Assembly (NCBI RefSeq): GCF_014645495.1
Contig: NZ_BMLV01000001.1
Coordinates: 1 to 64,000, forward strand
DNA length: 64,000 nucleotides
Source: Cloacibacterium rupense
GTDB lineage: Bacteria > Bacteroidota > Bacteroidia > Flavobacteriales > Weeksellaceae
Direction: 5' to 3'
In this document: one piece after another, positions 9,064 through 15,020 of the stretch
How the letters are laid out: every line of letters starts with the position of its first letter
How positions within the stretch are numbered: the first letter of the stretch is position 1
Notes under the pieces: model-generated
Databases searched by the model: none
What the model was told of the DNA's origin: nothing
The model's input: the letters and a program-made list of their open reading frames with translations, nothing else
Translations under genes and position numbers: made by a program

Positions 9064-9095
9064 CAAAAATAAAGTTTATGAAAAATCTGACCAAA
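9064..9095 (-). promoter_or_regulatory. Promoter of the UbiA-like/recF unit
   Basis: On the minus strand TTTG (9092-9095), exactly 20 bp, then TATTTTTG (9064-9071) match the Bacteroidota consensus. The -7 box ends 5 bp before the start codon, so the transcript would be leaderless or nearly so. The -33 box lies inside the divergent macroglobulin coding sequence. Confidence 0.6.
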
Positions 9096-12000
9096 ATCTT
9101 ATTCCTTTTTACTCTAATTTGTTTTTTTTCACAGATGAAAGCACAAAATTATTACGATACCCAGTGGAAAAAAATTGCTGATAATTATTCTAAAGGTACT
9201 TATAAAAGCAATTTGCCTTTAATTTTAGACCTTCAAAATCGAGCGATTAAAGAAGAAAATGCAATTCAATTGATTAAATCTTTGAAAGCAGAATTTAGCA
9301 TCGTGAATCTTACTCATGATGACTCGCAAAACGATGCGGCTTCTCAGTTTTTTAAAAAATTACAAACATTTGACCAAAAATTGGTTGGAGAAAGTAAACT
9401 GGTTTTCAATGTTTTGTTGGGTGATTTTTTCAAAGATTATTATAATGAAAATCAGTGGAAAATTAACCAAAGAACCAATGTCAACAATCAAGATTTTGCA
9501 CAAATAGAAACGTGGAGTAAACTCGATTTCAAAAATTTCTTTACCCAACATTTTGCCAAACTAGAAAAACAAAGTGAAGCACTTCAAAACATCAAAACTG
9601 CAAAATACGCTGAGATATTTAATCAAACCGAAAATATAGACTATTTCCCTAGTTTTTATGATTATAATGCCTTGAAAAACATAGATTTTCTCAAAAATTA
9701 TAATTATTTTACCAAAAATGAACTCAAAGAAAATCAATCTAAAGTTTCAGATATTTATCAATACGTCATCGCTAAAAATACAGGAAATTCGAAGCTTTAT
9801 TTCGAACACCAAAAACTGAATACAGATTGCGCTTCTAGTCGTTGCAAGAATAAACAAGAGCAACTTTTGGCGCTTTATAATTCTGCTACAGAAGGAGATT
9901 ATAAGGTGGAGATTTCAAAAGAAATTATAGAAGATTTAATCAATAATCAAAAATTTGAAGAAGCCCTTTCTTGGATTGCAAAAGTAAAAAAAGCGTATCC
10001 TAAATCTCCTTTTTTAGAGAATATCAAAAATCTAGAAAATACCGTTTTGCAACCTACTCTTGGCTTAAGTTTAGAGCAATATACTCTTCCAAATAAACCC
10101 ATTCATTTGGTGGCCAATTATAAAAATGCAAATGAATTTTCACTCAATATTTACGAAGTAAAAGAAGATTATCAAGGTTTTCTGTTATATGTCAGAAACA
10201 ATTGGCAAAAGGAAAATTTCACCAATATCAAGAAATCCTTAGTAAGAAAAGAAGTCTATCATTTGCCAGTAACTAAAGATTATAAAACGCACAAAACTTC
10301 ATTAGAGCTCAAGCCGCTTCCTTCAGGAATTTATGTGGGAGAATATTTGGTAGACGGAAAAGTGCAAGGAAATTTCTTTTTGGTTGCCAGTCAGTCGATT
10401 ATTATTTATCAAAAGAAAAATGACCTTTCGTCTATAAAAGATGAACTGAAATTGGTCAACAGAGAAAATGGTAAAATTCTACCAAAAGAAAATCTAGAAC
10501 TCTATGAATTTGTTAATAATAAACTCTCGCCAAAAGTTTCGATGATTAACAATGAAGCTGGGGTTTTTAAAATTCCTGAAAATTTGCAGAAAGAATATTA
10601 CCGTTTGTTCTTGGTTCGACAGCCAAAAACGAATGATTTCAATTTTATCAATGTTTATGGAAATCAATATGGTGATAGAACTAATAAAATTCATAACGAA
10701 GAAAGAGCTCAGATTTTCTTAGATAGAGCCATTTATAGACCTGGGCAAACTGTTTATTTTAAAGCAATTGCTACGTCTTTTGATGGAGATGAAAATAAGG
10801 AAAAGGCGATACAAAAAGTAAAATTGAATGTCATTTTAAAAGATGTAAATGATGAAGAAGTAAGCAAACAAACTTTAACAACCAATGAATTTGGTTCTGT
10901 GAATGGTAGTTTTACGCTTCCTAATGGGAAATTAAACGGACAATTTACCATTGAGGTTGATAATGATGATGACGAAATTACAGATTATTCGATTGAAGGT
11001 ATAAAATATTTCCAAGTAGAAGAATACAAACGTCCGAAATTTGAAGTAGAATTTGAACCTTTGAAAGAAGAATACAAATACGGACAAACCATTGAAATCA
11101 AAGGAAAAGCAATGATGTTTTCGGGTGTTCCTTTGAGTAATTCTACAGTAAATTACGAAATTAAAAAACAAAACATCAGATGGAGATATTTCTGGTGGTA
11201 TCCTCGTGGAAATGATAATGAAAATTCTATTTTGGGCGAAACCAAAACCAATGAAAAAGGGGAGTTTACCATAAAACTAGACCTTAAAAAAGATGAAAAT
11301 TTAGAAGGAATTCAGGTAGATAATTATCAGGTCAATGCTTCGGTAACAGACATCAACGGAGAAACGCAATCTGCCGAAACCAACATAAAAGTAGCTTCGG
11401 TTTCGCATTATATCGAAGTTGCTGATGCCAAGGAACATTATTTTTCTGATGAAAATCTGAAATTGACGGTGGCAACCAAAAATTATGACGGACAAAATCT
11501 GAAAAAATCGTACACCGCAAAATTATCTTCCTTACAACCAGAGGAAAGAATTTTCAGAAACAATTTTGAAAGCCAAATTCAAGACTTTCCTGTTTTGAAT
11601 AAAGAAACTTTTGTACAAAAATTCCCGAATGATTATTTTGATAAATCTGAAAAGGAAAATAAAGTTGAAAAAGTTGTTTTTGAAAAAACTCCAGATTCTA
11701 AAATTATTAGAATGACAAGTTTTAATTCTGAACTAATTAGTCAGCAAGGAAGTTCAAGCAACTTAGAAATTGGCAAGCTTCCTGCAGGAAAATACAAACT
11801 CGAACTCTTCAACATCGAAGAAAAAGACACGATTAAAACCGAGAAAATTTTTGAAGTTTTTGATAAAACCCAACTTTCTGAAAACCAAAAACCTTTCTTA
11901 AAAGTTCTTCAGGAAAAAACAGAATTGAAAAGAACCGAAAAAGCGAAATTCTATGTTTATTCTGCTATTCCGAATGCTTTGGTTAATATTTATGTTCAAA

Positions 12001-15000
12001 ACGGAAACGGTGAAACGATTTATGAACAAAAAAGTATTAAAAATGGTGTTTTGGTGTATGAAACTGCGCTTCCAAAAGATGAAAGCATCAATCAGTTGAA
12101 TGTTCAGTTTCAGTTGGTAGCGTATAATGATGTACAAACAATTTCTAAAAACTTAACGATTTTATCAGACAAAAAGCCGTTGAAAATAGAGTTGGTTACG
12201 TTCAGAGATAAATTGCAACCGAATTCTAAAGAAAAATGGACGGTAAAAATTTCTGGTGAAGACAAAGAGCAAGTAACAGCCGAAGTTTTAGCCAATATGT
12301 ACGATAAATCTTTAGACCAATTTGCAATAAACACCTATTCTTGGCAAAAGATTTATGACAGACCTTTTTATGTTTCTCAATATGCGATGAATGATGGTTT
12401 ACAACAATTGAGCTACAATAAAAGATTAAAATATTTCGGTTATAAGCAAGTGGAAATCCCAGATTTTAACTGGTTTGATGGTGGAATTACTTATCGATTA
12501 AAAGGAAAAGTATATGGTATTGTTTCTGAAGGTATGATATCTGCTACAAATGCTCCACCAGCTCCTGTTGCAATGGCAAATGCAGAAAGAATGGATTCAG
12601 CAAAATCTAAAGAAGTAGATGAAGTTGTAATGGTAGGTTATCAAACTCAAAAGAAAACGTCAATGACGGGATCTAGTGTAATTGATAAAGAAAATTTAGA
12701 CAAAATCCCAGTCCGCCAAAATCTCAACGAAACCGCATTTTTCTATCCAAATTTAATGACAGACAAAGACGGAAATGTTTCTTTTGAATTTACTTCTCCA
12801 GAAGTTTTGACTCAATGGAAACTGATGTTTCTTGCGCATACTAAAGATGCACAATCTGCCACTTTAGAAAAAAACATTGTTACGCAAAAAGAATTTTCGG
12901 TAACGCCGAATTATCCTAGATTTTTACGTGAAGGCGATGAATTGATTTTCAAATCGAAACTGAGCAATTTAACCACTCAACAACTCAACGGTTTTGCGGT
13001 TTTACAAATTTTAGATGCGTTTACTAACGAAGATATTTCTTTAAAATTTAATTTGAATGACATTCAAAAAACATTTACATTAAATGCCAACGGAAGTACA
13101 ACCGTTCAATGGAATGTAAAAGTTCCGAATGGAGTTTCTTCTATCATCATTAAAAATGTAGCAAAAGCAGGCGAATTTTCTGATGGTGAACAAAAAGCAA
13201 TCGCAGTTCTTCCGAATAGAATGCTGGTTACTGATGCTGTTCCTATTTTTGTGAAAGAAGGACAAACCAAAACTTTTGTTTTAGAAAATTTGAAAAATAA
13301 TTCTTCTAAAACAGCAACCAATGTTTCCAATACTTTAGAACTCACAACCAATCCAATTTGGGAAGTGATTTTTGCATTGCCAAGTCTTAAAAATGACAAC
13401 AATCTTTCGGCTGATGTGGTTTTCAATAAATGGTTTGCTGATGTTTTGGCGTCTGAGATTTTCAAAGCCAATCCGAAAATGAAAACCGTTTTTGATGAAT
13501 ATCAAAGTAAAGGTTTACTCAATTCTAATCTCGAGAAAAACCAAGAATTGAAACAATTATTGTTAGAAGAAACACCTTGGGTTTTAGATTCTAAAAACGA
13601 AACCGAACAAATGCAGAAATTGGCAAGATTGTTTGATGCAAATACGATGCGAAATTCCATCAATGATGATTGGAGCGAACTGAAAAAATTGCAAAATCCT
13701 GATGGCGGTTTTTCTTGGTACTCAGGTTACCCAAGTTCTTACTACAATTCATTGTATATTTTGAAAAATTTAGGCAGAATTAATGAATGGTTGAAAGGAA
13801 ATTTGGCAGATTATCAGTCTTCCGAACAAAAAGAAATGGTTTCTCAATTGGTGAAATATTTAGATAATGAAGTTGGGCGTTATTTCGAGGTGAAAAAAGA
13901 AAATGTTTGGAGCAATTATGTGTTAGACTATTTGGATACTCGTCATTATTGGGAAAAAGAATTTCCATTGAAAGGTGATGGTAAAAAAATGAAAGATTTA
14001 GTGATTTCAAAAGCGAAAACAGCAAAGATTACTGATTTTTCCTTTTTTGGTTTGCATAGAGCAGCGTTGCTTTTTGATGCTTATCAATTAAAAGATATTT
14101 CTAAAAAATTGATGACTTATCTGAAAGAAACTTCTGTACAAAGTGAATCACAAGGTGTATATTGGAAACAAAATCTCAATGATTGGGGTTGGTATTCTTC
14201 TAAAACCGTCAATCACGCAGGTGCTTTGGAAGCCTTCAATAAATTAACATCCGACCAAAATTTTGTGGAAGAAATGAAAATTTGGCTCATTACCCAAAAA
14301 GAAGTTTCTAATTGGGATACTTCTAGAAGTACTGCCGAAGTAATTTATACCATTTTAAATTCAGGAAAATCTTGGACTTCTGCGGAAAGCGATAAAGCCA
14401 CGATTATTTGGGGAGGAAAAGAACTTACCAATCCTGATACAAAAGCGACGGGTTATGTGAAATCTGCGGTAAATTCAGATAAATTGGATAAAAATTTGGC
14501 AACTGTAACCATAACAAAGCCAGGTGCTGGAATTGTGCAAGGCGGTTTATTCTGGCAATATTACGAGGATTTAGACAAAATAAAATCTTCGGAAAGTTAC
14601 ATTTCTATCACCAAAGAATTGTACAAAAAAGTGAAAACGGTAAATGGTGAAGAATTGCAAAAAATTACAGAAAATTCGCCGTTAAAAATCGGTGATAAAG
14701 TGACCGTTCGAATGATTCTGAACACCGATAGAAATATGGAATTTATCCACCTGAAAGATATGAGAGCTGCAGGTTTTGAGCCACTTGATGTGCTTTCTGG
14801 CTATCAATGGAAAAATAATTTGGGCTATTATCAAGTCACCAAAGATGCTTCTACCAATTTCTACATAGAATATATGCCAAAAGGAAAATACGTTTTCGAG
14901 TACGATTATATTTGTAATGCTGCAGGAACGTTCAGCAATGGAATTACTACTTTGCAAAATTATTACGCACCTCAAATGAATGCGCATACACAAGGAACTA

Positions 15001-15020
15001 AGGTTTCGATTTCGGAATAA
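9078..15020 (+). CDS. Alpha-2-macroglobulin family protein with an embedded SusC/TonB-plug-like segment
   Basis: A 1,980-residue exported protein with a cleavable signal peptide ending near MKAQ (residue 23). An MG2-type domain starts near residue 543 (AQIFLDRAIYRPGQTVYFKA). The A2M core starts near 1215 (NETAFFYPNLMTDKDGNVSF, then EVLTQWKLMFLAHT) and the C-terminal thioester-domain-like helical region is near 1500-1750. No CxEQ thioester motif was found, so trapping would be non-covalent. At about 1178-1210, just before the A2M core, lies DEVVMVGYQTQKKTSMTGSS followed by IDKENLDKIPV, strongly reminiscent of the start of a SusC-type TonB plug. Bacterial homologues inhibit proteases or act in envelope defence. 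No penicillin-binding protein gene (pbpC) is adjacent. Confidence 0.88.
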   Translation: MKNLTKILFLFTLICFFSQMKAQNYYDTQWKKIADNYSKGTYKSNLPLILDLQNRAIKEENAIQLIKSLKAEFSIVNLTHDDSQNDAASQFFKKLQTFDQKLVGESKLVFNVLLGDFFKDYYNENQWKINQRTNVNNQDFAQIETWSKLDFKNFFTQHFAKLEKQSEALQNIKTAKYAEIFNQTENIDYFPSFYDYNALKNIDFLKNYNYFTKNELKENQSKVSDIYQYVIAKNTGNSKLYFEHQKLNTDCASSRCKNKQEQLLALYNSATEGDYKVEISKEIIEDLINNQKFEEALSWIAKVKKAYPKSPFLENIKNLENTVLQPTLGLSLEQYTLPNKPIHLVANYKNANEFSLNIYEVKEDYQGFLLYVRNNWQKENFTNIKKSLVRKEVYHLPVTKDYKTHKTSLELKPLPSGIYVGEYLVDGKVQGNFFLVASQSIIIYQKKNDLSSIKDELKLVNRENGKILPKENLELYEFVNNKLSPKVSMINNEAGVFKIPENLQKEYYRLFLVRQPKTNDFNFINVYGNQYGDRTNKIHNEERAQIFLDRAIYRPGQTVYFKAIATSFDGDENKEKAIQKVKLNVILKDVNDEEVSKQTLTTNEFGSVNGSFTLPNGKLNGQFTIEVDNDDDEITDYSIEGIKYFQVEEYKRPKFEVEFEPLKEEYKYGQTIEIKGKAMMFSGVPLSNSTVNYEIKKQNIRWRYFWWYPRGNDNENSILGETKTNEKGEFTIKLDLKKDENLEGIQVDNYQVNASVTDINGETQSAETNIKVASVSHYIEVADAKEHYFSDENLKLTVATKNYDGQNLKKSYTAKLSSLQPEERIFRNNFESQIQDFPVLNKETFVQKFPNDYFDKSEKENKVEKVVFEKTPDSKIIRMTSFNSELISQQGSSSNLEIGKLPAGKYKLELFNIEEKDTIKTEKIFEVFDKTQLSENQKPFLKVLQEKTELKRTEKAKFYVYSAIPNALVNIYVQNGNGETIYEQKSIKNGVLVYETALPKDESINQLNVQFQLVAYNDVQTISKNLTILSDKKPLKIELVTFRDKLQPNSKEKWTVKISGEDKEQVTAEVLANMYDKSLDQFAINTYSWQKIYDRPFYVSQYAMNDGLQQLSYNKRLKYFGYKQVEIPDFNWFDGGITYRLKGKVYGIVSEGMISATNAPPAPVAMANAERMDSAKSKEVDEVVMVGYQTQKKTSMTGSSVIDKENLDKIPVRQNLNETAFFYPNLMTDKDGNVSFEFTSPEVLTQWKLMFLAHTKDAQSATLEKNIVTQKEFSVTPNYPRFLREGDELIFKSKLSNLTTQQLNGFAVLQILDAFTNEDISLKFNLNDIQKTFTLNANGSTTVQWNVKVPNGVSSIIIKNVAKAGEFSDGEQKAIAVLPNRMLVTDAVPIFVKEGQTKTFVLENLKNNSSKTATNVSNTLELTTNPIWEVIFALPSLKNDNNLSADVVFNKWFADVLASEIFKANPKMKTVFDEYQSKGLLNSNLEKNQELKQLLLEETPWVLDSKNETEQMQKLARLFDANTMRNSINDDWSELKKLQNPDGGFSWYSGYPSSYYNSLYILKNLGRINEWLKGNLADYQSSEQKEMVSQLVKYLDNEVGRYFEVKKENVWSNYVLDYLDTRHYWEKEFPLKGDGKKMKDLVISKAKTAKITDFSFFGLHRAALLFDAYQLKDISKKLMTYLKETSVQSESQGVYWKQNLNDWGWYSSKTVNHAGALEAFNKLTSDQNFVEEMKIWLITQKEVSNWDTSRSTAEVIYTILNSGKSWTSAESDKATIIWGGKELTNPDTKATGYVKSAVNSDKLDKNLATVTITKPGAGIVQGGLFWQYYEDLDKIKSSESYISITKELYKKVKTVNGEELQKITENSPLKIGDKVTVRMILNTDRNMEFIHLKDMRAAGFEPLDVLSGYQWKNNLGYYQVTKDASTNFYIEYMPKGKYVFEYDYICNAAGTFSNGITTLQNYYAPQMNAHTQGTKVSISE

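Follow-up and report, generated by a model that had tools for sequence, protein, structure and literature searches.

Bait regions of Bacteroidota alpha-2-macroglobulins may be patched from the cell's own envelope proteins

Introduction

Why would a predicted protease trap carry a piece of an outer membrane receptor? The question is raised by an alpha-2-macroglobulin (A2M) gene in the 64,000-nucleotide stretch of Cloacibacterium rupense DNA that we analyzed, hereafter called the window, in which a short peptide resembling the plug start of a SusC-type receptor lies within an A2M. The original prediction offered three readings of this peptide: a fragment captured to serve as a bait loop, a docking signal to outer-membrane machinery, or a remnant of fusion. 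In animal A2Ms the bait is a fast-changing part of the molecule, and we know of no animal bait that originated from recognizable pieces of the organism's other proteins.

A SusC-like segment at the bait position of a thioester-less A2M

The window protein has an apparent Sec signal peptide and no lipobox, as judged by eye, and belongs to the A2M superfamily, since its MG2, A2M and C-terminal MG domains all score above the curated cut-offs (Table 1). The CxEQ thioester motif that marks type I bacterial A2Ms is absent, and the protein is accordingly of type II (A2Ms without a thioester); the motif is present in only 12 of the 72 family sequences examined. The nearest named relative among the matches listed is that of Cloacibacterium normanense (92% over 768 residues after the bait).

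Table 1. Features of the window A2M, its bait region and the related locus elsewhere in the genome
Feature	Position	Strand	Residues	Remarks
A2M gene	9078..15020	+		1980 aa
MG2 domain (PF01835)	10713..10979	+	546-634	68.2 bits, cut-off 32.8
Bait region	12480..12713	+	1135-1212	hypervariable among homologues
Ala/Pro-rich stretch	12552..12596	+		APPAPVAMANAERMD
SusC-derived segment	12573..12710	+	1166-1211	leader, Ton box, plug start; own-genome SusC model
Ton-box-like core	12618..12638	+	1181-1187	DEVVMVG
Flagged peptide	12618-12713	+	1181-1212	DEVVMVGYQTQKKTSMTGSSVIDKENLDKIPV
Conserved flank RQNLNETAFF	starts 12714	+		before A2M domain
A2M domain (PF00207)	12732..12989	+	1219-1304	55.6 bits, cut-off 21
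Thioester-equivalent place	13377..13430	+		LPSLKNDNNLSADVVFNK; by-eye alignment with other A2Ms
bMG10 domain (PF17973)	14601..14975	+	1842-1966	109.5 bits, cut-off 26.2
Paralogue locus (second A2M and SusC-like barrel gene)	L098:1128-8553			own genome G000:C1, ~300.6-308.1 kb

Two bacterial A2Ms described previously provide points of comparison. The type I protein of Escherichia coli has a largely disordered bait inside an MG domain, ahead of the A2M domain, as in the window protein; once cut, this bait is reported to outcompete domain contacts. Unlike the window A2M, the E. coli protein has a thioester (CLEQ) (PMC4498604). The type II protein MagD of Pseudomonas aeruginosa shares with the window A2M the A2M domains, a bait region and the lack of CxEQ, and is reported to trap proteases non-covalently after bait cleavage; the accessible part of this account mentions no self-derived bait. 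MagD is encoded in the six-gene mag operon (PMC5764988). Four of the six genes around the window A2M match the Pfam families RecF/SMC, efflux outer membrane protein, HlyD and ABC-2, and the other two have no match in this Pfam-only search.

The flagged peptide lies in the 3' half of the interval originally highlighted and, as first noted, just before the A2M core, the PF00207 match beginning at residue 1219. This is the bait position. Among 832 pairs of family sequences (67 in all) that are at least 75% identical downstream of the bait, and with gaps counted as mismatches, mean identity is 0.142 across residues 1135-1204, 0.494 across residues 1100-1134 and 0.834 across residues 1205-1240. The structure prediction proposed as a check places residues 1141-1197 below a pLDDT of 50, between strands of better confidence, although the model (residues 1040-1330) is of low confidence overall (mean pLDDT 55.9). 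The variable bait ahead of the A2M domain that characterizes the superfamily is thus present, its disorder being read from this low-confidence model. Human A2M can be aligned at the bait end, but with an E value of 10 for this part we do not count the alignment as evidence by itself.

The SusC-type signature inside the A2M is real. Positions 74-112 of the SusC/RagA model TIGR04056 match residues 1176-1213, from the Ton box to the start of the plug, with an E value of 3.4e-6 when a 69-residue stretch is the query and 2.6e-5 when the query is 158 residues. Positions 2-48 of a 157-position model that we built from 12 SusC N-termini encoded in this genome match with a single-sequence E value of 2e-11. 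A profile search for a plug, also proposed at the outset, succeeded only in part: TIGR04056 matches, but Pfam Plug (PF07715) finds nothing in the window A2M. An NCBIfam search with the whole protein as query likewise reported nothing, and the TIGR04056 score of 25.7 bits is far from the 368.25 required of a whole receptor. Because Pfam Plug is silent and this cut-off is not reached, we regard the segment as a fragment. It has in common with SusC/RagA TonB-linked outer membrane proteins the leader, the Ton box and the first part of the plug, and, unlike them, it has neither a plug fold nor a barrel. Its core, DEVVMVG, conforms to the DEVVVxG type and resembles the Ton box of Bt1763 (82-DEVVVTG-88), whose deletion or replacement by alanine caused growth defects like those of SusD loss (PMC7782687).

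When the whole A2M was searched against its own genome, the sole matches were the protein itself and a stretch within a SusC gene (residues 1164-1201, 47%, E 3.4e-4). At the DNA level no donor for the window bait was found in its own genome, the best non-self matches having an E value of 0.05. Recent capture inside this genome was considered and rejected on the basis of that negative search; one of the matches at 0.05 overlaps the paralogous A2M described below, at its Ton box.

Baits of homologues contain pieces of several envelope proteins

The remaining check suggested originally was a survey of homologues for the same insert. A2M matches at an E value of 0.001 or better occur in 136 of 148 family genomes, four of them at only ~1e-5, which may be SusC. 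From 72 A2M frames, 68 were retained past the anchor (L015, L037, L043 and L052 were dropped). A scan of a genome collection contributed at least 79 named loci, 74 of which gave 75 frames (L129, L140, L149, L153 and L162 were dropped). Removal of nine frames (eight named loci) judged to come from the same genomes as others in the set left 134 baits, each compared as the 125 residues preceding RxNLxETAFF. Pieces were called at a single-sequence E value of 1e-4, with 1340 shuffles and 1783 other stretches of the same proteins as controls.

Pieces of the SusC N-terminus are present in 63 of the 134 baits, as opposed to one shuffle and one control stretch, and they recur at the same place in homologues. 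The TonB linker is represented in 10 baits and the OmpA thrombospondin-3 linker in four, neither with any control match, and GldN in five (no shuffle, one control stretch). Counts for these three probes, which are single proteins found via some of the baits they later matched, include those baits. Overall, 76 of the 134 baits hold at least one of the four kinds of piece, compared with 1/1340 shuffles and 2/1783 control stretches for the four probes summed, and six have two donors each; the other 58 have no SusC, TonB, OmpA or GldN piece at 1e-4.

Unguided family scans (E up to 0.1) agree with the probes in part, namely for SusC, other TonB-dependent receptors and TSP_3. The NCBIfam leaders by members are SusC (44 and 19 of the 134 baits) and other TonB-dependent receptors, and Pfam returns Plug in 21 baits, CarbopepD_reg_2 in nine, CarboxypepD_reg in eight and TSP_3 in four. 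Pfam also returns CooC_C in five baits, with a best E value of 0.002. A fold search on a bait model of low confidence (mean pLDDT 49.1) gives support to nothing beyond a SusC NTE domain, in the bait of a Flavobacterium.

The SusC pieces come from one end of the receptor. With a full-length SusC model at 1e-3, the midpoints of all 82 bait domains fall within the first 200 of the model's 959 positions and none lies in the barrel, whereas such a midpoint is seen in one of 17 shuffle domains and none of 12 domains from control stretches. Of the 134 baits, 52 have a detectable Ton box. Where two separate SusC pieces are present (E up to 0.02), the plug piece precedes the Ton box in 19 of 25 baits, which is out of SusC order.

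GldJ was also tried as a donor and is unproven: a GldJ probe from the window genome matched none of the 134 baits at 1e-4, compared with nine of the 1783 control stretches, and another GldJ comparison was about as weak. One bait matches the GldJ family at 5.6e-7, and two Psychroserpens baits contain a peptide like the GldJ sequence RNFRDGD (L127, ADDRNFRDGDSRSQKE; L161, GNFRDGDSRSDK).

Records from a plasmid collection include four A2M homologues, all from Bacteroidales. The SusC model matches their baits at 0.0012 (Bacteroides finegoldii), 0.021 (Parabacteroides distasonis) and 0.03 (Prevotella), and not below 0.4 in P. massiliensis. The SusC-like B. finegoldii bait (L212) reads MIRGGGVQKKAAMTGSVAS. 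In L212 and in the P. distasonis record (L211), DUF1573 genes follow the A2M gene.

Donors can be named within the same genome

Genomes for donor searches were chosen for informative-looking baits rather than at random, and TonB was already expected for one of them (G139). In genome G030, one SusC gene aligns with the bait DNA over 278 bp at 72% (E 4.5e-36, the runner-up being at 3.9e-4), and the bait protein is 70% identical to that SusC over 104 columns. Against a set consisting of the 133 other baits, the 12 SusCs of the window genome and the paralogue, the same bait never exceeds 48% in alignments of 90 or more columns, or 54% in shorter ones. Same-genome donors were likewise found for baits of G129 (GldN, E 4.5e-8), G075 (an OmpA-family protein, E 2.9e-17), G063 (TonB linker, E 2.4e-6) and G139 (TonB linker, E 3.0e-7). 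Family scans confirmed the donor identities, reporting GldN (with GldM adjoining), TonB, ExbD, OmpA with TSP_3, and SusC. We take the donated pieces, from the known topology of these proteins, to be periplasm-side linkers or N-termini. Genome-wide searches found no donor in G136 or G128; the G136 bait looks by eye like a scrambled TonB, an impression with no score behind it.

Evidence that baits are replaced in blocks and exchanged between species

Two homologues, L008 and L009, agree at 98% over 250 residues after the bait and 95% over 170 residues before it, but their baits agree at only 17%. Their DNA matches up to the codons for FNWFDGG, is wholly different in the bait, and matches again from the codons for RQNLNET. 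The opposite pattern is seen when L009 is compared with L020: identity is 94% in the bait, 83% after it and 74% before it. At the DNA level this pair is 0.95 identical in the bait plus the first 60 bases that follow, 0.88-0.90 in the 350 bases before the bait, and 0.70-0.82 in the other parts of the gene that were compared.

Changes in bait content counted on a tree of the after-bait region suggest some inheritance and much turnover of the pieces. The counts, with shuffled means in parentheses, are 34 (41.6) for the Ton box, 12 (18.0) for the plug, 31 (32.8) for the GRVAGV piece, 15 (23.3) for the IRG piece, 11 (12.6) for the TonB linker, 5 (5.9) for OmpA and 6 (5.95) for GldN. Neighboring A2M genes can also have different baits, with an OmpA-type beside a GldN-type (L061, in G129) or beside a SusC-type (L062, in G095).

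Five donor-bait pairs share 56-77% of their amino acids, and identical residues use identical codons in 78 of 164 cases, where 46% is expected at saturation. Because synonymous sites between donors and baits are saturated, either capture happened long ago or the cassettes have another source, and no capture has been caught in the act. Among 14 bait pairs, which were selected because they could be aligned and are not a random sample, dN/dS is defined in 13; it ranges from 0.04 to 0.60, is below 1 in all 13, and exceeds the after-bait value in 11. For pairs chosen in this way, baits seemingly are held under constraint and then replaced whole.

A paralogue with a complete plug

The genome that contains the window encodes a second A2M (Table 1), of 1553 residues. 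This protein has a CFEQ thioester, and its bait position is occupied by an entire Ton box and plug, matching TIGR04056 positions 76-219. The gene just upstream encodes a SusC-like barrel that TIGR04056 matches at positions 278-981 only and that has no Pfam plug. This locus looks as if one SusC had been split, with the plug incorporated into the trap. Might the bait of this A2M plug a plug-less pore? The gene before the barrel (L098:105-1091) encodes a 328-residue protein with a weak match to the SusC signature TIGR04057 (E 0.012) in its C-terminal part, and the second half of the plug seems to recur there. A scan of viral contigs with the paralogue found no relative. Single-record annotation under the paralogue's matches already names A2M-family and plug-domain proteins, so the co-occurrence of A2M and plug is visible to annotators. 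No description of self-derived A2M baits was found among the best matches of a literature search whose coverage leaves out most subscription journals.

Discussion

The explanation that we favor, with a probability of roughly 0.6, is that the bait is patched in blocks from linkers of the cell's own envelope proteins and works as a protease bait. As read from the sequences, the segment is at the bait position and the whole bait is an exchanged mosaic, replaced in blocks and constrained between replacements, and an origin of its pieces in self proteins is well supported. The original prediction did not notice this mosaic. Its idea of a captured fragment serving as bait loop stands for origin and position, on the evidence of the hypervariable loop, the donors and the SusC model, and its use as bait we infer from other A2Ms. 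Several results weigh against the favored explanation: the 58 baits with no donor at 1e-4, the two genomes searched in vain, the saturated synonymous sites, the low confidence of the structure model, the lack of a thioester, and a dN/dS that is higher in the bait than in the core in 11 of 13 pairs.

According to this explanation, the window segment would be an in-frame piece of a SusC receptor, taken from its periplasmic N-terminus (leader, Ton box and plug start), within the bait region of a predicted periplasmic, thioester-less A2M. Cassettes appear to be swapped in blocks between the conserved strands ..FNWFDG and ..RxNLNETAFF, to hold the cell's own periplasm-exposed envelope pieces (SusC N-terminus, TonB linker, OmpA thrombospondin-3 linker and GldN) and, judging from the alignments, to move between species as well. 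A foreign protease entering the periplasm would cut the exposed, flexible loop, and the cage would then spring around it, as in other A2Ms; with the thioester absent, no covalent capture of the protease is expected. Self linkers may be favored because they are flexible, already withstand the proteases resident in the periplasm and are cleaved by envelope attackers, which is the least certain step of the scheme.

Docking is another way to account for a Ton box in this place. The C-terminal domain of TonB would bind the Ton box of the bait and tether or spring the A2M, with other pieces binding other envelope partners. Ton-box pieces are the commonest kind, the bait sequences are under constraint, and the window core resembles the Ton box of Bt1763, the loss of which gave growth defects (PMC7782687). 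Most baits nonetheless have no detectable Ton box, and others carry OmpA, TonB-linker or GldN pieces. No partner shared by those three kinds of piece is known to us. Docking keeps some probability for the window A2M because its piece is a Ton box, but we consider it rather unlikely. We think it unlikely, too, that the pieces are neutral debris, that is, that the bait accepts whatever soluble sequence is in frame and that pieces of envelope proteins were retained by accident. High turnover, the age of the captures and the 58 baits with no recognized donor speak for debris. Debris does not readily explain why SusC pieces come solely from the periplasmic N-terminus, why dN/dS is below 1 in every defined pair, or why the donors in five genomes (SusC, GldN, OmpA and, twice, TonB) are all envelope proteins, although these genomes were not a random choice.

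A single ancient fusion, in which a SusC N-terminus (NTE, Ton box and plug) entered the bait and was then eroded and rearranged by duplication and deletion, is quite improbable. Complete plugs or NTE domains do occur in baits of several families and in the paralogue, and the presence of the plug has phylogenetic signal on the after-bait tree. As a whole story, however, one fusion is insufficient: non-SusC donors exist, plug pieces mostly precede Ton boxes, the G030 bait is closer to one SusC from its own genome than to the other sequences compared, and two Ton-box subtypes can be distinguished by eye. The fusion remnant proposed originally, if understood as one such event, thus loses most of its appeal. 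Chance resemblance can be given almost no weight. It is true that the match in the window is short and that Pfam Plug is silent, but the profile scores, the shuffles and other-stretch controls, and the recurrence of SusC pieces at the same place in homologues contradict it.

More broadly, and only as a tentative proposal that we consider somewhat doubtful, A2Ms of Bacteroidota might draw on circulating cassettes that mimic self (SusC, TonB, OmpA and GldN linkers), captured, selected for their sequence and passed between species. Envelope-attacking proteases would be trapped by imitations of their own targets, an innate-immune-like decoy that copies self.

Where new bait sequences come from and how they are shaped matters for the whole A2M/complement superfamily. 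Here the sources of baits can be named, and the sequences themselves show breakpoints as well as swaps between species. If the self-mimic reading is true, then bacteria possess an evolving decoy against proteases.
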